Both the position numbers and the translations under genes were made by a program. A model generated the notes under the pieces. That model was not told the DNA's origin, searched no databases, and saw nothing but the letters and a program-made list of their open reading frames with translations. This document shows, piece by piece, positions 10,473 to 62,100 of a stretch of DNA of 64,000 nt. The first letter of the stretch is position 1, and each line of letters starts with the position of its first letter. The DNA lies in NCBI RefSeq assembly GCF_037975245.1, contig NC_092579.1, positions 28,896,666 to 28,960,665 of the forward strand. Reading direction: 5' to 3'. The DNA is from Apostichopus japonicus. Taxonomy: Eukaryota > Echinodermata > Holothuroidea > Aspidochirotida > Stichopodidae.

Positions 10473-10477
10473 CTTCC

Positions 10478-10549
10478 AGCCTCCACCGGGAATCAAACCC
10501 GGGCCTCCCGCTTTATATGCGGACACCCTGACCACTAGGCTATGGACGC
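10478..10549 (-). tRNA. tRNA-like gene, anticodon position reads AUA (Tyr-type), possibly SINE-derived or pseudogene
   Basis: On the minus strand the 72 bases fold as a cloverleaf. The acceptor stem GCGTCCA/TGGAGGC has 6 of 7 pairs with one G-G mismatch. A three-pair D stem encloses TAGTGGTCAG. The anticodon stem TCCGC/GCGGG encloses the loop ATATAAA, and the T stem CCGGG/CCCGG encloses TTTGATT. Box A (TAGCCTAGTGG) fits the consensus and box B (GGTTTGATTCC) has one mismatch. A T6 run follows closely downstream. The anticodon position reads AUA, which would decode UAU (Tyr), but the body looks more like tRNA-Asp or tRNA-Glu and there is no intron. It could be a diverged tRNA, a pseudogene, or the head of a SINE. 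Confidence 0.55.
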
Positions 10550-10782
10550 TGATCGTATATGTCCAGAGATTCGAAACCGGTAAGGAAGGTCGTAATTCCA
10601 ATGTAGGCGTGTGTCACCTGTATCGAACAATACTATATAGTTCTGTTTTGGTGACATATTTGCCTTAACCTATAGAGATTAAACATGATGCTAACCAACT
10701 CGAAATCATTTGTGACTCCCAAATTAAAGCCGGATCTCGAAAGAGATACTCTGAACAGTTTTTCTTCTGAACTCACACGCCC

Positions 10783-14571
<3,789 letters not shown>

Positions 14572-29841: not shown

Positions 29842-30986
29842 TCATTCTGCAGGTGAGCGCGAGCGTGATCGTGAGCGAGATCTTGATCTGGACTTCTGGG
29901 GCGATGGACTTCGGTTCCTTTGCGGCGACTGTGACTTTGACCTTGAGTGCGATCTCTTTACTGGAGATGAACCTCTTGGTGGGCTCCTGGATTTGCTTCT
30001 GGATACTGATCTTCTCCTTGGTGACCTCCTTGGAGATCTGCGTGGGGACCTACGTGGAGACCTAGAGCGTGATCTTGAGTAACTTTTGCGGCGGCGTGGG
30101 GACCTGGATCTTGATCTTTAAAAAAAAATAAGAATAGTTTGTTGAAATAGTTTTTTTGGCTAATTTAACACCCTATTATCGTGCAATTTAACTTTGCTGC
30201 TGTAAAAGTAGCCTAATTGTGAAATGCAAGAATCTGACCATCAAATGATACTTTTTAAGAAAAGTAGCCCAAGAAGAGACTCAACACTAAACTCACACAT
30301 CTTGATCCGCTCTCAACCCCATATCTCTTTGACAGTCCGAGTCCATATTATCCAGCCTATAATCGTATGGCCATGGCGAGGCAATCCCTTGGAAAGGGAA
30401 TAGCCTAGGCTAGATATGAATGCTAGTTGCTACTAGCCTACTCATGACCCAGTGAATGATGGGACTTCATCCAAACTGTGAAAAGAGTAAGAACTAGCAT
30501 TGTCTCTTATGCTGGTAACCTAAGCCTAACAAGTTACAATAAAAGCAAAATGAATACAAACCTTCTCCTTGAGTCCCTTGACTGGTGTCGCCTGCCGCCG
30601 CCATAGCCTCCACCACCACCACCACCGCCGCCGCCGCCATACCGGTTGCCGTAACCGCGATCATATTGCCCTCGGTAATTATATGGTGGTGGTCTGCTTG
30701 GTCGGCCATATTTAGCCTTCTGCACTCGCAATTCGCGATCCTCAAATATTTCTCCGTGGAGATCATCCATGGCTTCTTCTGCATCTCTTTTCTCGTAAAA
30801 CCTTACAAAGGCAAACCCACGACTTTCCTTTGTGAAACGATCCCGTGGAATATACACGTCACCAACTCGGCCATACTTAGAAAACAAATGCTCTAGATCC
30901 TCAGGTTTTGTTCCATATGATAGATTATCGACCTTAAGAGATATCATGTTTTCTGCGTCTGGTGGTGGTCTTCCATATCCAGACAT
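29842..30986 (-). CDS. SRSF2: SRSF2/SC35-like serine/arginine-rich splicing factor
   Basis: Two exons on the minus strand: 30986-30562 and 30115-29842. They join in phase to 232 residues plus stop (human SRSF2: 221). Residues about 14-92 form one RRM, with RNP2-like LKVDNL and RNP1 RGFAFVRF. The linker is rich in Gly/Tyr/Arg and includes a run of 11 Gly. The second exon is a classic RS domain (repeated [16 protein letters not shown]) ending SPAE. SR proteins bind exonic enhancers in the nucleus and promote spliceosome assembly. The start [14 protein letters not shown] and the text [25 protein letters not shown] match SRSF2 closely. The acceptor reads AAAG and the donor AAG|gtttgt. A frame on the opposite strand over exon 2 is only its shadow. 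Confidence 0.92.
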
Positions 30987-31072
30987 TTTGGCAGATATTC
31001 GGTAACGATGTGATGTGATTTAGGTGGATTTCTGTAGAGCAACTGAGCGTCGTTCTTCTCCTTTTCAGAGTA
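30987..31072. promoter_or_regulatory. Candidate bidirectional promoter / 5' leader of SRSF2-like gene
   Basis: Only 86 bases separate the SRSF2-like ATG from a divergent short ORF. No TATA box is visible. A pyrimidine-rich CTTCTCCTTTTCAG just before the divergent ATG looks like either a splice acceptor or an initiator tract. Inference from spacing only. Confidence 0.3.
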
Positions 31073-47100: not shown

Positions 47101-50100
47101 AGAGAACTAAAGAACAAATTATGCAATCATCTGATTTGTTATAAATATATGCAAGGTAAATCGTATTTAATCGTTGCATTAGTCGTTATTAGTCATCTTA
47201 ATTTCTGTAGTCATCCTCATGTTTTTCCTATTAGTTATAACTAATCACTTTTATAGTCATAGTTCACTCCTCAAAGCTTTCTGTAATCATACATAAGTCA
47301 TCCCTTTGTCAACCCCATAGTCATGCATTCTCATCTGTAGTCATTCTTAACCATCTGTAGTCTTCATTCATAATGATGGTCATCCTCATCAATCCCATAG
47401 TCTTCTATTCTCATCTGTAGTCACCCAGAAGTTCCAGAACCATCTGCAGTCTTCCTTCATAAAGATGGTAATCCTTCATCAATCCCATAGTCTTCTCATC
47501 TGTAGTCATCCTTAACCATCTGTATTCTTCCTTCATAATATCATAATAGATAGTCATCCTTCATCAATCCCATAGTTTTCTATTCTCATCTGTAGTCATC
47601 CAGGACCATCTGTAGTCTTCCTTCATAATAGATAGTCATCCTTCATCAATCCCATAGTCTTCTATTCTCATCTGTAGTCATCCAGGACCATCTGTATTCT
47701 TCCTTCATAATATCATAATATATAGTCATCCTTCATCAATCCCATAGTTTTCTATTCTCATCTGTAGTCATCCAGGACCATCTGCAGTCTTCCTTCATAA
47801 TAGATAGTCATCCTTCATCAATCCCATAGTCTTCTATTCTCATCTGTAGTCATTCTTTAACCATCTGTAGTCTTCCTTCATATTAGATAGTCATCCTTCA
47901 TCAATCCCATAGTTTTCTATTCTCATCTGTAGTCATCCACAACCATCTGCAGTCTTCCTTCATAATAGATAGTCATCCTTCATCAATCCCATAGTCTTCT
48001 ATTCTCATCTGTAGTCATTCTTTAACCATCCGTAGTCTTCCTTCATAATAGATAGTCATCCTTCATCAGTCCCATAGTCTTCTATTCTCATCTGTATTCA
48101 TCCAGGATCATCCGTAGTCTTCCTTTGTAATCCATAATTATCCATTAATAGTCATTCCATCATCAATAGTACTCATACACTGGCATATACTTAATCTTCC
48201 TTAGTTTTCTTGTCATCATACAGTCATCCTTCATCATAGATTGTCATATCATAGTCAATCTGTAGTCACCTGGAATCATGCTGTAGTCATTCCTTAGTCA
48301 CACCCATAATCATATTTATTCATTCCGTATTCATTAGTAGTCATCTACAGTCATCATTCTCCATGATTCTCCTTCCGACGTAGATAGTTATCTTATCATC
48401 ATAGATAATCTTCCATAATCATTCTGTAGTCATTCGTAGTCACACCCATAATCATGTTTCCATATTCATCAGGAGTAATCTACAGTCATCATTCTCCACG
48501 GTTCTCCTTCCGGCGTTAGATAGTTATCTATCATCATAGATAATCTTCCATAATCATTCTGTAGTCATTGGAAGTCACACCCATAATCATGTTTCCATAG
48601 TCATCAGGAGTAATCTACAGTCATCATTCTCCATGATTCTCCTTTCAACGTACATATTCATCACATCATATCTAGTCATCTGTAGTCAATCTGTAGTCAT
48701 TGGAAGTCACACACATAATCATCTTCATTCATTCCATAGTCATCAATAGTCATCTACAGTCATCATTCTTAATGGTTCTCCTTTCAACGTACATATTCAT
48801 GACATCATATGTATTCATCTGTAGTCATGCGCAGTCACACCCATAGTCATCTTCATTCAATTCATAGTCATCAGAAGTCATCTACAGTTATCATTCTCCA
48901 TGGTTCCCCTTTCGACATTAGATTGTTGTCTTATCATCATAGATAATCTTCCATAATCATTCTATACCGTAGTCATTCGTAGTCACAGCCATAGTCATCG
49001 TCATTCCATAGTCATCAGTAGTCATCTACAGTCACCATTCTCCATGGTTCTCCTTTCGACGTACATATTCATCACATCATATGTAGTCATCTGTAGTCAA
49101 TCTTTAGTCATTCGTAATGATATCCTCCTTTGTTTTATATTGAATCTTATTGCTTTTGTTTGATTTTGAGCAATTTCAAAAATTTCCTTTTTAACCATTA
49201 CAAAAAAATGTTTGGTTTTCACTTGTAGGTGTTATAAGTCAAGCTAGTTTCAAGCATAAGCTGCAAGAAGGTGCATGGAGGGGCCAACTTTTAAAGTCCC
49301 TGAAAGCAAGACGAAGTCTGGAAACAGATGCATTTAGTCACTACCTCTCCTCGGTCGACACGGTATGCTGCCCTCCCTACGCACTTCACCATCACTTTTC
49401 ATGACTCTTATTTCAGGGTAGCAAAGAATTGACAGTGTTCTGTTCCTTGAAAAATCAGTGAAAGTATTAAGAGGTTGTGAAAAATCCAAAGTGAAAGAGG
49501 GACATATTTTATGCATCCTGGTGGTGAAATTTGCCTATAATATGCTGTGTTTGTTATCAGAACACAAGATTTGACAAAGATTTTGTACCACACATGATCC
49601 TGAAGCAAATAGGTACAAGTATGACCTCATAGAAGCAAACTCAATATTTTCTTTTTCTCTCTTTTTTTTCTTTTTTCTTCTTCAAAATTTACATCCAATA
49701 ATCTACATCAGAGTATGTATGCAGTTGAATAAGGGTTATAGATATATTGTTTAACTTCACATCCCCGTAGGTGCATTTGGACTCATTATCTTAAAATCAA
49801 AGATCAAATATGAAAGTGAAAAGAAAAGCAAAATAAATTATTTGCTGTGTAGTTTGCACCTATGACATCATACCTGTTTCTTCATTTTTCTTAAAAACTA
49901 TGGCAAATTTCATTTATTAATATCTTACGAACGCCATGTCAGATTTGCTTGCCAACTACACCTGATGCTTAGAGTATGCAACTCTTTCGGTTTAGTCGAG
50001 CCTGTCACGCATCTAAGTTTGATATTTAGGACTTCCACTCTATTGAAGATTTTTTATCAAAATATTAAACCAAGAATGTTTTTATTTTCACCAACAAAAT

Positions 50101-53100
50101 GTGCATTGCTCAATGTCCTTTTTGGGGAAGTATTTTTTGAACTCTGATATGTCAATTTCAGCTGCCTTAAAGTTGACCTCATTTAGGTGAGGTAGCTGCT
50201 CTTCACAATGCCGCTATGTTGCAACATTTTACCATTTTGATATCATGGTTAAAAGTAATACCGACATGAGGTTTGTCAAATTAGGAAAGATAAAATTGTC
50301 AAATGCCATTGTTTTCAAGGAGTTGAATTATCCTCTCATCTAAGTCTCTCAGAAGCATTAGTTTTACATTTTGCTGTTAATTTCATGTTAATAGTAGCTT
50401 CTGCCACCAGTGTGTTTCCTATTGAAGTATCTTCAGTAGGCTGTAACTACTGTAGGTCATAGTGAGAAAGATGTGCACAATTGTAGCATATATGTTTTAA
50501 TATTTGACAGACACCTTGGATCAAGAAAGGTAAAATTCAGTGGCAATCCGAAGATCGGAAACGACACTGGCTGGATTGCGACGTGGAGCTTGTGAAAGGA
50601 GACGACCAGACTAAGAATAAATTCACAGTGGTGTGCGACATGTACGGTAAAAAAAAGGTGAGTAGTTGAACCAAAAGAAACGTAAATTCACTGTGGTATT
50701 TGACATGTACGGTAAAAAAAAATGTTAGAAGTTGAACCAACTGAAGCATAAATTCACTGGTGTGCGACATGTACGGTAAAAAAAAGGTGAGTAGTTGAAC
50801 CAAAAGAAACGTAAATTCACTGTGGTATTTGACATGTACGGTAAAAAAAAATGTTAGAAGTTGAACCAACTGAAGCATAAATTCACTGGTGTGCGACATG
50901 TACGGTAAAAAAAAGGTGAGTAGTTGAACCAGAAGAAGAATAAATTCACTGTGGTGTGCGACATGTACGGTAAAAAAAAGGTGAGTAGTTGAACCAGAAG
51001 AAGAATAAATTCACTGTGGTGTGCAACATGTACGGTAAAAAAAAGGTGAGTAGTTGAACCAGAAGAAGAATAAATTCACAGTGGTGTGGAACATGTACGG
51101 TAAATGAAAGGTTAGTAGTTGAACCAGAAGACGAATAAATTCACAGTGGTGTGCGACATGTACGGTAAAAAAAAGGTGAGTAGTTGAACCAGAAGAAGAA
51201 TAAATTCACAGTGGTGTGGAACATGTACGGTAAATGAAAGGTTAGTAGTTGAACCAGAAGACGAATAAATTCACAGTGGTGTGCGACATGTACGGTAAAA
51301 AAAAAGGTGAGTAGTTGAACCAGAAGAAGAATAAATTTACAGTGGTGTGCGACATGTACGGTAAATAAAAGGTGAGTAGTTGAACCAGAAGAAGCATAAA
51401 TTCACAGTGGTGTGCGACATGTACGGTAAAACAAAGGTGAGTAGTTAAACCAGAAGAAGCATAAATTCACAGTGGTATGCGACATGTACGGTAACAAAAA
51501 GGTGAGTAGTTGAACCAGAACAAAGGTGAATAGTTAAACCAGAAGAAGAATAAATTCACAGTGGTGTTCGACATGTACGGTTAAAAAAAGGTGAGTAGTT
51601 GAACCAGAAGAAGAATAAATTCACAGTGGTGTGCGACATGTACGGTAAAACAAAGGTAAGTAGTTGAACCAGAAGAAGAATAAATTCACAGTGGTGTGCG
51701 ACATGTACGGTAAAACAAAGGTGAGTAGTTGAACCAGAAGAAGAATAAATTCACAGTGGTGTGCGACATGTAAGGTAAAAAAAAAAGGTGAGTAGATGAT
51801 CCAGAAGAAGAATAAATTCACAGTGGTGTGCGACATGTACGGTAAAAAAAAGGTGAGTAGTTGAACCAGAAGAAGAATAAATTCACAGTGGTGTGCGACA
51901 TGTACGGTAAAAAATGTGAGTAGTTGAACCAGAAGAATAATAAACTTGCAGTGGTGTGCAATATGTACGGTAAAAAAAAAAGGTTAGTAGTTGAACCAGA
52001 AGAAGAATAAATTCACAGTGGTGTGCGACATGTACGGTAAAAGATGTGAGTAGTTGAACCAGAAGAATAATAAACTTGCAGTGGTGTGCAATATGTACGG
52101 TAAAAAAAAAGGTTGTGTAAAAGTAAGTTGGCCTGACGTTTCGATCCTAGCAGGATCTTCTTCAGAGGCTAAATGGTTAGTAGTTGAACCAGAAGAAGAA
52201 TAAATTCACAGTGGTGTGTGACATGTACGGTAAAACAAAGGTGAGTAGCATACAGGGTTGGTGTTTAGGTGGAAGACGGGGGGATAGGGTTAGTTGGGGG
52301 GGATGAAAGGTGGGACTTTCCCATTGTTATTTCAACCTCCATATACGACAAACTTCTCGGAATATTTTCCCCCCAAAACATCTATTGACTGCAAAATGAG
52401 ACAAACAAGTACATCGGAGGCAAGGCATGGTCTGGCCATAAAAAAAACAGAAGTATATAGGTCTGTGCCAAAAGAAACACAAACACAGAAATCTGTGAAA
52501 TGTAATAGTTCCTACATTTATACTGAGCATGAGCATGAAGAATTCTATTATTGAAACAAAAATTATGATTACTGAATCATGTTTACTGGCAACAGAATTT
52601 TTGTGTGCATACATGACACATACACAGGTGGAGTTTTGCCACCTCCCCTCCCTCCTCCTTCAAACTTGCCCACTCCATGCCATTGCTTATTCAAAACAAA
52701 AAATCTGAAGACTTTTCAAATCTATCATCTGTATGAACCAAAACAATTTAAAGAAGAATGGTAAGTTCTTGTGGTGAAAGTTATTTGCTATTATTGTAGT
52801 GCACTATCAATATTATAGTGTTTGAGCTCTGAAGTTAAAAAATCTTTGAAATATAAATATAGAAAGAAAGCTGTAATCTTGGTGTTCAGATCTCTTGTCA
52901 GGGGGATGGAAAGATAGAGAGCAGAACACTTCTACGGTATCCTCCTCAGTACGTGCTATCTCGATTTTATTTTCACTTCCTGCAGAAATTACAAATTCCA
53001 ATCTCAGAAGTCACCTGCGTCTTTGAAGTCAGCACTGGAGATAAGCCCACCTTCAGCATCCTCACTGCCAAGAGTATTCTGGATAAAAACCCGGTCAGAT

Positions 53101-56100
53101 TCAGAGTCGGGACAGAGGAAGAACTCCGAGATTGGGTAAGAGTTGTCCTAAATCGGGTCTCCTCGGCAAGAAGGGGTCTTCAAACTTTACGTACAACATT
53201 TTTGTCACTTCGTGTTTCGATTTCATATGAGAAGGTTTTTCTCTTTTAAAAGTCATATCTCGTTACAGTCAGGGAATCGCAAATGTGGTTTTGCTAAATA
53301 TTGGTATGTGATGTCTTAAAGTATTTAACTTCTTTGGCATCTGCTTAATTTAGCTGATTTTAGTAATACTCAAAGTATCAATTGGTAAAATTTACAGACC
53401 ATCTAAAGATTATTTCATTGTTTAACCTGTTTTCATGAATTGGTCTTCCAATACAATGTTTTTTTCTTTCAAATGTCATATCTCGTCACTCTCAGGGAAT
53501 CACAAATGTACCTTACTTCTTGTTTTTCTTTTATTTTGCTAGAAATGGTTTCCAAGTATTAAACCTCTTTGGCATCTGCTTAATTTAGCTGATTTTATCA
53601 CTCGATAGCCATTAAAGATGATTTCATTGTTTAACTTGTTTTCATGAATTGGTTTTCCAATACAATTTTTTTTGTTTTGATTATCTAAAACTGAATATTG
53701 CCATGATATGATATGTTTAGTTTCTTTGATCCTCTTTAGATAGTTGCAATAAGTCTGGCATGCTCAGATATACAGGACGTCGCTGCCACGCCCAGCCCCT
53801 ACGCTGCATGGTGCACCACCTCCAGGGGTGATGTCTTTTACCATCAGACCAAGCCAGACACGGAACTCTCTCCTGCTAAACAGATGTGAGTACTAAATTC
53901 TGCCGCCCGATTAGTGACACCTTCCAAGAAGAATGAGCATATAACCCCCATCCTCCGCGAACTGCATTGGCTACCAATACAACAACGTATCAATTATAAG
54001 ATTGCACTGCTCACTTTCAAATCTCTAAATAATATGGCTCCTGTCAACATTTCGGAACTCATCACCAAATATGAACCAAGTCGTAGTTTACGCTCCTCAC
54101 CACAACTCTTTCTTTGCCATCCTTCTAAATCAAAGATCAACTTCTACTGAGAGAGATCTTTCACAGTAGCTGCCCCCATGGTTTGGAACAGTCTTCCAGG
54201 AAATATCTGTTCTTTAACTAATCTTAATCATTTTAAAAGAGATTTGAAAACACATATTTTTAAATGTTTAACATGAACACTTTATACTTGTAATGTAATG
54301 TAAATATTTGCTCTTATGTTTTAATACTCCTTTTCTTTTTTTTGTATTGTTATTTTGAGTTACCCGGTGCAAGTTTTTGTATTGTTTGATATCTTTTAGG
54401 TATTTATATCTGTACAGTGCTTTGAGATTATATTGGAAAGTGCTTTATAAATAGCACATATTATGATTTTTATTATTATCTGTATGTTGAAAAGCCACGG
54501 TATGTCAGACATTACTCGAGTACCGAGTGTTTGAGAACCGTACTATCGAGAAAAATCAGACTGAATCAGTGTCGTTCTCAACTGCTTAGTCAGATCAGTG
54601 GAAATAATTATTTGATTTCTTGAAACTAGAAATAACGGAATAATACACAGTGATGATATCAGATTGAGTCTTACATTTATCAAAATTTGATACAAAACCA
54701 GGTAACTTGGCCCAAAAAACATTTCCGGTAATTTTGTAAGATGAGTCATGGAAGTAGTTTCCGCCCATCTCGAGACGATATCACTTTAAGGAAATTATCT
54801 GGCAACTTGTGTGTTAATACTATCATTTCTTTTTCATCCTTTACAACAGGTACTGGCAACAGATAGGCGGTCACCTGCACCACATTGAGAGCTGCCCAGC
54901 AGGGGTAGTGTGGGGTATTGGAATGGACCATGCGGTTTGGGTTTGGACAGGAGGCTATGGAGGGGGAATTTTTAAGGGTAAGAAGAAAGGTACACACTTT
55001 TTATCCATTTGAGAATTTTAGGATGCCCTACCCCCCAAATATGAGTGAATAAGAGTGAAGCCAATCATGACTTGGCAGAATTTCCTTTTTTCATAGTAAA
55101 TCATAGTCCAAGCAAACCACTTCTTTAATTTTAAATTGATGATGATTTCGGCTCGTCAGGTGCAGGCCTTTTTATAAAATTAATCTAAATCCAGAATTTT
55201 TATAAATTCTATAAACTTAACCAAAATTTGTTCTTGTAACTTCATATAAACAATCAAACATACATGGATGACATTAAGCAGCACTTGTCCTTGAGAATTT
55301 TCTTTTACACATGTAAAAAGTTGTCATTTGAGGCTGTAAAAATGTTAATGTTTGAGTTTTTGTTGTATCGAGGAACTAAGACTTAAACGTCTGTGTATTG
55401 GACTGACTATAAAGTCCAGCCAGCTAAAATGATCAGGGATGTAAGTCTTCCGTATTTTTACGGAAATCCGGTTTTTTTTTCAGGGATGTAAGTCTTCCGT
55501 ATTTTTACGGAAATCCGTTTTTTTTTTAATTCCAATAATGTTCCACAAAATTGTTCGAATATCAAAGACACAACGCGGCAAAAATGCCTGGCCCGTTGCA
55601 GCAAGCTAACTTCAACTTTCACTCATCGATCAATCAAAATACCATTCCTGTTTCGCATCATCGCATTGCACTGTACAACATTGTGCCATGTGAATATCGT
55701 TGCGTACGTGCGAACTTCAAATCGCCATAGCTCATTTCTGTCGTTGAAAAACCTTGCCTAATTCACGTTGATTGGACTGCTAAATTAATATCTTCGTAAC
55801 TGCTGGTGCTCGACATAACTTTCGGAATTAACGCTTGTGATATTTGTGAGCGGCGGAAATCTACGGGATACGCATATGAAAGTCGATATTTGTGATCGCA
55901 TTCGAATGTGAGACTGTTTTTTATTCCGTAGTTGGCTGCGACGTATTCGTAACTTTGAGCTAGCCTAACATAATGATAGTGTGTAAGTAGTAAGAACTAG
56001 GGGTAAGATGTGTTAGCGCTAATACTTCTGAGCTAGCCTAACTTAACGATAGTGTGTAAGTAGTCAGAGCTAGGAGTAGGATGTGTTAGGACGGCATTCA

Positions 56101-59100
56101 CCCGGGGTCTCCGAATAGTTTTCCGTTTTTTTTTTTTGGCTGCACTTACATCCCTGAATGATGAAACTCAGCTGTTTAAACTTTGGTCATTTTTATAAAA
56201 AGTTAACAATTGGTACAGAAATGCAACCTGCTCTGATAGCTGTGTTACTTTTCAGTCTATCACATATCAAACCTTAACGTTGTGTCTTATGTCATCCATC
56301 AAGATATAATTGATGTTGAAGATTGAGTTTGACTACGGAACTTCAGAAATTTAGGAAGTGGATCAGACTATGACAATGTTTATTTATTTATAATATGTAT
56401 GCATATTTTTCCTATGTTGCATTTATTTGCATGTAAAAATTGAGAATATATATACAAAAATGTAAATATTTCAAAGCCGAAAATTGAATATTTTTGTCAA
56501 CAGGCGTAAATAGCAGCACCTCGGGGATCTATGACCAAACAGATACGAAGAAAGTTTACCTCTTCGAGAATCAGAGGTGGAGTCCGCTCTACGGATTTAG
56601 CAGAAAGTGAGTCGCTTTTTACATCAACCCTTCGCTCTATTATAAAAGTTAAACCAGTACCAATATTTAATAGGATGGTGAATATGGTTGTTCCCTTGGT
56701 TGTAAATCTAGGGTCTCATACTTGTCAAATCCAAGTTTGATGGGACATTTCAGATGTATCGATCTCCCCCCCTCGAATGCTGTTCCCTCCCTCGAATGAT
56801 TCTCAGAGACACCTCATGCCCGATTTCATCATTTCCTGTGTTTCTTTGGCAGAGTTAAGTAACATATCCTGCGCGCATATACCCACAAACACGTCTCCTT
56901 CAGTCATAGAATCCCTGGAAGAGTCAATTTCCTGGCCTGAGAAAAGTTGGGGACAAAGTCTGGAGTAAAAATATCAAAAGTCATGAAAGGGTCTTGGAAA
57001 ATGGAATGGTTTTCTAAATTTTTCCTTGCTGACTCTGTGGTACAAAAATTTATGCCCAACGCAAAATGAAAGAGATCATGGAATTTTTTTATTTTTTGGA
57101 ACATGGAAAAGTCATGAAGTTTAATTTTCAAGGAATTGTGTTTAACCATGTTGCAATTTTTTTTTAAATGATGATCTATGGTAACATTAGATTGCAGCAA
57201 ACTGGAAACACAAAATGTAGCTTTATGAAACTTGTAAGACTTTGCTGTAGACCTCTTGTTCTTTACAAGCCCCCCCCCCTCCACCCCTTTCAGGAGCCCT
57301 TGTCCTCCCAGCAGGCACCAGGAACACCCCTTCAATATACCCAGTAATATATTTTATTTTGTTTTGGCTCAATCAGGCATATACTCTGGATGACAGATTC
57401 AGGGAAAGTTACGGAATCAAAGGATACGGTCACACCTCCGTCTGGACAATGGCACTGGGTAAGACAGCAAACCGTGGTTACAGTATATAGTGCAATGTGT
57501 ATAGTGTAGTTCATCCCAGATTTAATAAGGAGTGGCACTGGGTAAGACAGCAAACCGTGGTTGCAGTATATAGTGCAATGTGTATAGTGTATTACATCAC
57601 AGAATTAATAAGGAGTGGCACTGGGTAAGACAGCAAACCGTGGTTGCAGTATATAGTGCAATGAGTATAGTGTATTACATCACAGATTTATTAAGGAGTG
57701 GCACTGGGTAAGACAGCAGACCGTGGTTACAGTATATAGTACAATGAGTATAGTGTATTACATCACAGATTTAATAAGGAGTGGCACTGGGTAAGACAGC
57801 AGACCGTGGTTACTGTATATAGTACAATGAGTATAGTGTAGTACATCACATATTTAATAAGGAGTGGCACTGGGTAAGACAGCAAACCGTGGTTACAGTA
57901 TATAGCAATGAGTATAGTGTAGTACATCACAGATTTAATAAGGAGTGGCACTGGGTAAGACAGCAAACCGTGGTTACAGTATATAGCAATGAGTATAGTG
58001 TAGTACATCACAGATTTAATAAGGAGTGGCACTGGGTAAGACAGCAAACCGTGGTTACAGTATATAGTGCAATGAGTATAGTGTAGTACATCACAGATTT
58101 AATAAGGAGTGGCACTGGGTAAGACAGCAAACCGTGGTTACAGTATATAGCAATGAGTATAGTGTAGTACATCACAGATTTTATAAGGAGTGGCACTGGG
58201 TAAGACAGCAAACCGTGGTTACAGTATATAGTGCAATGAGTATAGTGTAGTGCATCACAGATTTAATAAGGAGTGGCTGTTAGACAGAATTTGAGTCTTG
58301 AATATGTTATAGTTCTAGAAAAAATAACAAAACCTGATTGCTAGTGGTTGTGTTTCCATGATCGCTATTTACTTGGTTTTTCAACATTTTATTCAAAAGT
58401 AATGCTGAAACTCTGGAATTCTGCTTTAAAGTTCTCAGAGATACTGAGGATGATGATGATGATGATGTTGGCTCTTATGTTGCATATCGACATGTTAATA
58501 TCAACCCAACCTTTCTTTATAAATTCAAATAACTCAACCCAAACTTGTCCTTCAAATTCATATAAACAAGACGGCAGCACCATTTGTCTTTGACAAATTT
58601 TAGATGTATTGTGAACATGTAAATTTAAGGCCATAAAGTCTTATGTTTTACCATTGAGTTTTGTGTTGCATCTGATTAAAACTATGTGTGTATGGGAAAA
58701 ACAAAGACTTTTATAGCCTCAGATTACTTTACAGTGTAATGTGTTATACATTTTTCAAGGACAAGTGCTCTTGAATGTCATCCAGCGATGTTGTGCTGTT
58801 TACCTGAATTGAAAAGAACACATTTTGGTTGAATTATTAGAACTGTTAAACAATGGATTAACATTAACAAATTAGGCCTGCACTGAGGCGTGTCACCATC
58901 AAATAAAGCCTTAAAGAAGCAATAAAGCGATGGAAACATAACTACGTAGCACTCAAGGTTTTCTTTTCTTTTTCTTTTCTTTGATATATCAAAACTCTTC
59001 CTTAAATTCACAGTTTATCTTTAATTTTGAATATTAATACATCCCAGTCAATGCAAGTACTACCATCTTAGCATTCTTTCAAACCAATATAAGAGAGTCA

Positions 59101-62100
59101 ACTGTATCCTAACCAGTCACTTTCTAATTTATAACTTTGCGATAAATTTAGTTCTTTATCAAAACGTCATTTGTCACCTCTTGATCTACTCCAGACTTCA
59201 GAATGGCAGATTGACTTCAGTGTTAAGGGTAGCACAGATAAGGAAGGCTGGCAATTTGCTAGAGATTTCAAGCAGTAAGTACTTTCATAATCTTTTTTAT
59301 ATTCCGGCCATAAAAAGTTACGTTTAAGCTAGCAGGTTAACAGTAAAGAATAATGCAATGGGAGGATCCTGTGTTAAAAATATCATTTTACAATTTGGAA
59401 TTATTTTTTTGGAATTACAAACAGCTATTTTAGTTTATCATACTGATATAATTAAAGACTCACAGACATTCATTTATGGTCTTTATATCTAGTCAAATAT
59501 GCATATCCAGCAATATTCAGTGGATAATACAAATTAGGATACAATTATTGTGATTTTCATGGCTGTGGCGCTTCAGCTATTGGTAAAAAGCTGACCGTTG
59601 AAACAGCTAGTTTCTCTCTTTTTGTGTTTACTATATATAAGTATAAACCTGAGCTTATCTTTTTAAGTTGTAATATTTTCTTTCATCATTGAGTGGCTCA
59701 AATACCACTGCCTTCATGGATTTGCCAATCCATGCTGTTCCCTGGAGGAACCCAATGAAGAGGAGAAGGGCTACCCCTAAAGAGAGGTGTGTGTGTGAGG
59801 GAGGGGTGTTGGTTGCACCAGTCATGGTACATTTTCATGGTGGAAGTTGTCTAAAAAAGAAAAAAGATTTTGGCAAATAATGGTGGATGGAATTACAAGG
59901 AATTGCTTTTATTTTTTTCCCCCAAGAGTCACAACTCACACAATATATATTTTTGATCCATGCATGTACAGGGCATGGCTTTTGTTTGAAAATGTTTTGC
60001 AAATAATCAACAATTTGTCTATATTATTCCACTATCCTCTCTTTTCGTCTATTTAAAGTAACTATTCAAGCAATAGTTTATCTTCATTCTCTTGAGCAAT
60101 GATCATGCATCTCGAATCTTGCACCGACAACCTGTGCACCTTTTGTTTCCATATAGGCCAGTTCAAACTTAGCGTACATTGGGTATGGTTGTAGTGTGGT
60201 GCTTCAAGTAGCTAGGGCCTTTTCTGAGTGCAGTAGCATGAACCTTGCTTCATATTTTCTCATCCTTTCTGACACTGTTACCTATCACTGATGGCAAAAA
60301 CTTGTAGGTGTTTCCATCATGATCTCTTTTGGGATTACACCTTATAAAGAGGTGAATATGCAGCTTGTAATGGCTCTTAAACAGCAAATTAGAGAAAGCT
60401 GTTGCCCAGCAACCAATTTAACAAACTAAAATTGTGCTGCTTTGAAGGAGTAATAAAGGAATTATGTCATCGTGATAGAGATAACACCCCCCTCCCCATC
60501 CCCCCCTCATCTCGCCTCCTTCTAACAGAAACAAAAGGTGTTTTCCTTCTTTTTGGGACATACAGAAGGTTGAAATGGACAATGGTAGTGTTAGGATTTA
60601 CTCTCAAGTTCATTGCATTCAGTGAGGGACCTTCGCATCTGCTGACTGCATAATGAACTCACGTCATCAACAACGAAGACGTGTTCTTTTTATCTGCTTA
60701 AAGTTTTTATCTCCTTAAAGTTTCCATCAAGTGTCTCCTTTACTCTGCCATGTTTTCATTTTGCCCCGTCAAGTCTATTTGGAAACAAAGAACAGCTCTC
60801 TAGACCTCTGGAAGAAGTAGGCCCTCTCCCCCTTCCCCCTCCCCCTCCCCTCCTAATTTGTATGTTACATTCATGTGTTAGCACCCTTATAATTATTGCT
60901 TATATATGCTTTCGCTTTCTTACTCTCCTTGTGATATTAATTTGACAACCGTAGTAACGAGTAAATCTGTTAACGTCTTCTTTCATTTACAGTAGCAAAG
61001 GATTTCACAAGGAGAAGCGATGGAATGACTACGTCCGTAGAAGGCGATGGTTCAGGTAGACATTTATGTTAATAATGACACTAAAATCAGTGATTATGCT
61101 AATAATGACACTCATATATAAAATCAGTGATTCCAGTACAGTTTCAGATGACACAGTTATTGCTCAACTTATTATTGTTGGCATCCAGTTATTTTGCATT
61201 CAGACTCAAGTTTCAGTTGGAAGTTTGGTCGAGCTTCAGTTCAAACTCAATTTTCGTTACATTTCTCCGATGTTAAATGTAGTTAGGTTTTTACCTGATT
61301 CAGCCTACTGCTGTGTACTGTTATGAATATGAACGCCAGTTTTTGAAATGCAGTGGCAATGAGTATTACTGTCCTCTCTATGCGACTTTAACTGAGGTTA
61401 TCATAAACCCAGTGAGGAAGAAGTATTAGTTTTGGTTTGAATATGAAATTCTAAAGACAGAACACTGTGTAATGACTGACTGCTGATCTATTGCAAAAGC
61501 CTGTTTAAGCAAGTGACATTCCCATCCTAGCAGGATCTTCTTCGGAGGCACACTGCAAAAAAAAATGAGAAGGAGAACAAGTGAACTAGACATAGAGAAA
61601 AGTCAATTGGAACATTGAACAACCAAGAATGAAAGAGTAGAATTTTGGCAGAACAGTTGCCAGGGAGATGAAAAGACTGCTTGAGATGAACTGTGAAGAG
61701 AAACCATAACAAAGATGGAGTTAGCCATGGAGCTGAAGGAGTGAATGGTTGAAAGAAAAAAAAACATAGCATTCCAAAATATATAAATTAGATGATTAGA
61801 TAGATAACTAGTAAAACCTCTTCTATTTTGTTTTTATCATTTACTTTGATCCACAAAGGTCTTGTCAGCTGGTGACGACTGGGCCATGGAGGAGGGCCAA
61901 GGGACTTGACCTCATTGACGTGTCCCTTCAGGTCGATGCGGACATCTCACAAGATGGACCCATTGCTGTCTGGGCCCTAGGGACTAATGGTGATGTAATG
62001 ACTAGGATAGGAGTCACCAGACACAATCCTAGGGTAAAGGCAGAACTTATTTTATCAGTTTCAAGAGAGCAGGGATGTGCCCACGCTGGGCGGCACTGTA

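Follow-up and report, generated by a model that had tools for sequence, protein, structure and literature searches.

A donor site followed by many near copies of itself raises the question of which copy ends the exon and what, if anything, the other copies do. We addressed this for TECPR1, an autophagy gene that lies on the forward strand of a 64-kb stretch of DNA (the window). The original prediction had the donor copied about 23 times behind its own exon, and our anchor search agrees with this, yielding 24 units and hence 23 extra copies. The exon concerned is indeed exon 10 in our gene model, in which only coding exons are numbered and exon 1 is the first one with a plausible start codon.

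The gene model and the array at exon 10

Splice signals and reading frames allowed us to join 16 exons of TECPR1 into a stop-free sequence of 1153 residues, and the gene continues 3' of the modelled exon 16. A solved TECPR1 chain, 8p5p_A, is matched both by the open reading frame (ORF) of exon 2 (E = 2e-11) and by that of exon 3 (E = 6.8e-9), and the ORF of exon 5 matches the Hyd_WA propeller family in Pfam (E = 5.4e-11). For exon 11, Pfam gave only a sub-threshold PH match (E = 0.039). No Pfam family was found for five of the ten ORFs submitted, including that of exon 10, and several others had sub-threshold matches only. The features considered below are as follows.

50511..50657, + strand: TECPR1 exon 10, 147 nt, phase 0 (modelled from splice signals and frame)
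50605..52248, + strand: tandem array of 24 units of ~65 bp (Tandem Repeats Finder and anchor search)
50658..50663, + strand: authentic donor GTGAGT (donor 1), the only one of the 24 that keeps the frame
50658..50669, + strand: read-through codons V-S-S-stop
50724..52246, + strand: span of the 23 extra donors, 15 of which score at least as high as donor 1
50724, 50787, 50853, 50916, 50981, 51046, 51111, 51176, 51241, 51307, 51372, 51437, + strand: GT of the first twelve extra donors
51502, 51591, 51656, 51721, 51788, 51853, 51916, 51983, 52046, 52112, 52241, + strand: GT of the last eleven extra donors
52112..52176 (ends approximate), + strand: unrelated insert of ~65 nt in unit 23, bringing the unit to a length of 130
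52986..53135, + strand: TECPR1 exon 11 (model)
57377..57458, + strand: TECPR1 exon 15 (model), the final 9 nt of which open the second array
57450..58277, + strand: second donor-spanning array, 10 units of 81-83 bp
59195..59274, + strand: TECPR1 exon 16 (model)

Elsewhere in the window, an ORF at 30534-31019 on the reverse strand, ~8 kb upstream of TECPR1, matches RRM_1 (E = 3.4e-21) and resembles the splicing factor SRSF2. Another reverse-strand ORF, at 12074-12814, has a von Willebrand type C domain match under the Pfam cut-off (E = 4e-5). The sole tRNA-like match of the tRNA and Rfam scans (10477-10550, reverse strand), called tRNA-Tyr with the odd anticodon ata, is possibly a tRNA-derived repeat.

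At exon 10, Tandem Repeats Finder reported a period of 65 with 14.1 copies at 50605-51520 and 9.0 copies at 51522-52109, and the anchors of the 24 units span 50638-52221. The array is therefore present where it had been placed (50640..52250), but it begins earlier, at 50605. Each unit is made up of 53 nt of the end of exon 10 and 12 nt of the start of intron 10. Unit 1 is the genuine end of the exon, with the repeat starting 53 nt inside it and the exon 10/intron 10 junction at 50657/50658 (AAG/GTGAGT), and all units align to it in both the exon part and the donor. The array is not a chance product, since its linker 23-mer has 19 matches with at most three mismatches in the window, all of them within the array, against a mean of 0.00 in shuffled sequences (n = 100).

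Differences among the units record some of the history of the array. In the compared columns, units 2-3 are identical to units 4-5, and units 8-9 to units 10-11, unit 11 having one extra A; such identical two-unit blocks are a mark of local re-duplication. Similarity is 98.5% between units 20 and 22 and 89% between units 21 and 23, many units carry private changes, and unit 14 contains a 24-nt partial duplication. We suggest that a segment spanning the junction, comprising the last 53 nt of exon 10 and ~12 nt of the intron, was duplicated in tandem, and that the array may then have been enlarged by further local duplications. As for the insert in unit 23 (52112-52176), its 31-nt core matches once in the window, and with the palindrome-like core GATCCTAGCAGGATC it looks like a part of a dispersed element.

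Competing donors and their messages

A GT stands at the donor position in all 24 units. The donor word is GTGAGT in 17 units (the real donor and 16 copies), GTTAGT in three, GTTAGA in two, and GTAAGT and GTTGTG in one each. Scored with a matrix that, like the U1 5' end, was not tool-derived, donor 1 (AAG/GTGAGT) reached 12.32, ranking second among the 15 real donors scored. By this score, the real donor is equalled or surpassed by 15 copies, making 16 strong units out of 24; five are intermediate (8, 10, 20, 21, and 22), and three are weak (2, 4, and 23). By the same matrix, none of the 13 other introns scored contains a site as strong as donor 1; this scoring used a model without exon 14, the sequence from exon 13 to exon 15 being taken as one intron.

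We found no sign of selection on these donors, as their columns vary about like the other columns. In the 18 non-redundant units (units 4, 5, 10, 11, 22, and 23 set aside), the donor columns had 0.78 changes per column vs 0.88 elsewhere, and 10 of the 37 control blocks were as conserved or more so. With all 24 units, the values were 1.78 vs 1.44, and 30 of the 37 control blocks were as conserved or more. Masking of the decoys by RNA structure was also considered. In the RNA, base pairing is possible between ATTCAC of the consensus unit and the donor GTGAGT (50616-52248), and local folding gave donor 1 an unpaired probability of 0.063 and the decoys values from 0.006 to 0.438. Masking was rejected because donor 1 is not clearly more open, nine of the 23 decoys having a higher value and one an equal one.

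The exonic context of the decoys is copied to a varying extent: upstream identity to exon 10 extends over at least 20 nt in six of the 23 decoys, and over at least 40 nt in two of these, with a maximum of 45. Between repeats, alignment of short reads can yield spurious junctions (PMC10632439). The array contains 13 GAAGAAGAA motifs, which we take to be enhancer-like in role, and exon 10 contains none. According to the available text of PMC5585400, enhancers situated between competing donors favor the intron-proximal donor, a rule for which its own genome-wide analysis gave no distinct confirmation.

We joined each of the 24 donors in silico to exon 11. Donor 1 gives an open frame, and every one of the later 23 leads to an identical ending, YGKKKVSS-stop, after residue 927 and three codons past exon 10, with the length of exon 10 ranging from 147 nt up to 1730 nt. 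Hence, production of the protein requires the first of the 24 donors, and since the truncated product is one and the same, the choice of a donor is binary for the protein: either donor 1 or truncation. A truncated message is expected to undergo decay. These results bear out two statements of the original prediction, namely, that reading past the first donor meets an immediate stop, and that the use of later donors truncates the protein. As the modelled exons past donor 1 are open to residue 1153, the full-length protein appears to be kept.

It had also been proposed that each unit contains TTCACAG, a possible weak acceptor defining a micro-exon of about 30 bases. The motif recurs, but the micro-exon idea is not supported. 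TTCACAG occurs 15 times in 50501-52320, one of these occurrences lying inside exon 10, against 24 units. The size of the proposed micro-exon agrees with the units: once unit 1, being the exon proper, is set aside from the 18 candidates, AG/TGGT remains in 17 of 23 units, and the candidate micro-exon would be 29 nt long in 11 of the 17 and 27-31 nt in the other six. Only four of them (units 11, 20, 22, and 23) would keep the frame, and 13 would truncate the protein. Upstream of the 14 TTCACAG/TGG sites scored, pyrimidines make up 24-29%, compared to 59-88% at the 15 acceptors of the gene model; units 12, 21, and 23, in which the AG stands in other words, were left out of this count. With so little of a pyrimidine tract, we consider these sites poor acceptors, though poorness is no proof of non-use.

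A second array at exon 15 and other minisatellites

TECPR1 has a second array of like kind at exon 15, which the original prediction did not mention. It opens with the last 9 nt of the exon and its donor, and all ten units carry TGGCACTGG/GTAAGA; read-through would run for 16 codons before a stop. The first 15 columns are invariant in all ten units, and none of the 54 other 15-column blocks is. This could hint at constraint on the donor, but we do not build on it, since just 15 of the 84 columns vary at all. The linker pattern of the exon 10 array has no match with up to three mismatches in the exon 15 array, nor the reverse, and the two arrays thus look independent.

More generally, the gene is rich in minisatellites. 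Two further large ones, with periods of 82/165 and 135, fill most of intron 8 (47296-48125 and 48274-49116) and touch no modelled exon. Of 20000 random placements of the gene's four large arrays, 1.2% had at least two arrays starting no more than 53 nt from an exon end, a limit set after the data were seen; a single array spanned some donor in 26% of placements. In a scan of the boundaries, two of 16 donors were followed by copies (22 in one case, 9 in the other), and none of 15 acceptors had any. Among control 20-mers in introns, a control that includes the intronic parts of both arrays, 256 of 1634 had at least three later copies in their own intron. As the placement test and the boundary scan disagree, we found no sound evidence that arrays prefer donors.

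Known systems and alternative readings

The architecture is already known; what stands out here is how many units there are, that one gene has two such arrays, and how good the decoys are. The descriptions of other systems below follow the available portions of the papers cited. In amphioxus, tandem repeats across exon-intron boundaries have been called 'mirages' and described for Adh3 (units of 10-72 bp) and the globins BflGb6 and BflGb9 (150-160 bp); splice signals are present in many but not all copies, and the length differs between haplotypes (PMC3087553). Either exon boundary can be duplicated (PMC3087553; PMC3902484). The Adh3 data and RT-PCR of the globins suggest that regular splicing is undisturbed, although the copies could be cryptic sites (PMC3087553). 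Troponin C was added later in a paper that also likens repeats of 60 and 108 bp in PGBD5 to mirages (PMC3902484). In the parts of these two papers available, all cases termed mirages are cephalochordate, and TECPR1 is not among the genes named.

The TECPR1 arrays resemble mirages in several respects. They are minisatellite-like, with 24 units of ~65 bp and ten units of 81-83 bp, and the reported mirage units bracket 65 and 83 bp in size. Both include the authentic exon end, with an overlap of 53 nt at exon 10 and of 9 nt at exon 15, and the donors at exon 10, with a GT in each of the 24 units, are of uneven strength (16 strong, five intermediate, and three weak). The differences are that two haplotypes of BflGb6 are described with six and three units, compared to 24 here, and that two arrays occur in one gene. 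The comparison with the lancelet is one of form. Among the literature matches listed, as judged by titles and abstract openings, there was no report of such arrays in TECPR1.

Another precedent in form, though an opposite one in the use of its repeats, is human IFI6, as there, too, a tandem repeat offers several donors to one exon. Its repeat unit is 12 bp long and in frame. Turri et al. in 1995 reportedly described the IFI6 (6-16) minisatellite with its multiple splice donors. In the description available, two of the repeats further downstream serve as donors, giving three mRNA species, and the alternative donors encode different proteins (PMC4526556). In TECPR1, by contrast, the units are 65 bp long, and the 23 later donors all leave one stop and no different proteins.

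Duplication in tandem of a segment with splice signals is also known from intron gain of the Rogers type, in ATP2A1, potato RdRp, and 24-bp repeats in fission yeast (PMC4974935). The difference is that the TECPR1 junction already has an intron, the donor of which has been multiplied, and that the copied GT sites are strong while the AG sites look poor. In human genes within segmental duplications, tandem repeats at exon-intron boundaries may form novel introns in recent paralogues, and the repeat is often retained in an alternative transcript (PMC2812944). Like the TECPR1 arrays, which are seen here in DNA, these variable internal repeats are minisatellites that lie at exon-intron boundaries and alter the structure of genes. 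In intron 18 of ABCA7, the length of a VNTR is linked to splicing, but the effect is skipping of exon 19, and the repeat is not described as a copied donor in the text available (PMC6660495).

We consider it probable (about 0.78) that the arrays at exons 10 and 15 are new mirage minisatellites, neutral for the most part, and that splicing relies on the first donor. The first copy would remain the working end of the exon and the other 23 would be intronic decoys, which the spliceosome may mostly pass over in favor of donor 1. Occasional use of a later donor would result in one identical truncated or decayed message, and a second array of like kind would have arisen at exon 15. We propose that donor 1 wins because it yields the shortest exon (147 nt) and the only readable mRNA of the 24. 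That the decoys are mostly ignored is suggested by the open downstream exons, the unconstrained decoys, and the amphioxus reports. The recurrence of the architecture at exon 15 and the match in form with the amphioxus mirages are consistent with this reading. Against it, 15 of the 23 decoys equal or exceed the real donor in score, the 13 GAAGAAGAA motifs between competing donors could push the choice downstream, and the invariant donor columns at exon 15 could hint at constraint.

The same decoy scores, together with the lack of a comparable site in the 13 other introns scored, would also fit the idea of the original prediction that later donors are really used, in which case the copy number would determine how much of the TECPR1 mRNA is truncated or decayed. 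The donors described in the IFI6 repeat (PMC4526556) and the correlation of the ABCA7 VNTR with exon 19 skipping (PMC6660495) point the same way. Yet the donor columns at exon 10 are not conserved, one identical truncated product leaves no graded set of isoforms, and amphioxus mirages have been reported without disturbance of splicing (PMC3087553; PMC3902484), so that we regard this use of the donors as unlikely. A sharper form of it, in which the array is a length-tunable brake, each added unit shifting splicing to the one truncated or decayed message, builds on the decoys that are as strong as the real donor and on the GAAGAAGAA motifs between them, and seems to us more doubtful still. Were it true, allele length would set the dose of TECPR1, with two arrays in the gene.

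An assembler could have created or mis-ordered the extra copies. The recurring two-unit blocks (2-3/4-5 and 8-9/10-11) would fit such an artefact, and one amphioxus mirage seems to be aberrantly assembled in the genome draft (PMC3087553). On the other hand, many units have changes of their own, there are an insert in unit 23 and a partial duplication in unit 14, and exon 15 has an array of like form but different sequence, which makes an artefact very improbable. Least credible is an intron or micro-exon in the making, in which the units, by a tandem duplication of the Rogers type, supply both GT and AG and form new small exons between exons 10 and 11. In its favor, AG/TGGT stands ahead of the exon copy in 17 of 23 units, four of the 17 micro-exons stay in frame, and it has been suggested that new introns can stem from mirages (PMC3087553); the pyrimidine fractions (0.24-0.29 vs 0.59-0.88) and the 13 truncating micro-exons argue against it.

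With 16 donors of equal or better score in a similar local context on one pre-mRNA, the exon 10 array is a natural experiment in splice-site choice, in which the first donor alone can make the protein; such arrays could show how cells ignore decoys. If donor 1 is used almost always, position (the first donor and the shortest exon) rules over strength. If it is not, the array would act on an autophagy gene as a control that varies with repeat length. As one gene has two of these arrays, one may ask whether minisatellites across donors are common in the source genome, and in a host other than a lancelet the finding would gain in general interest.
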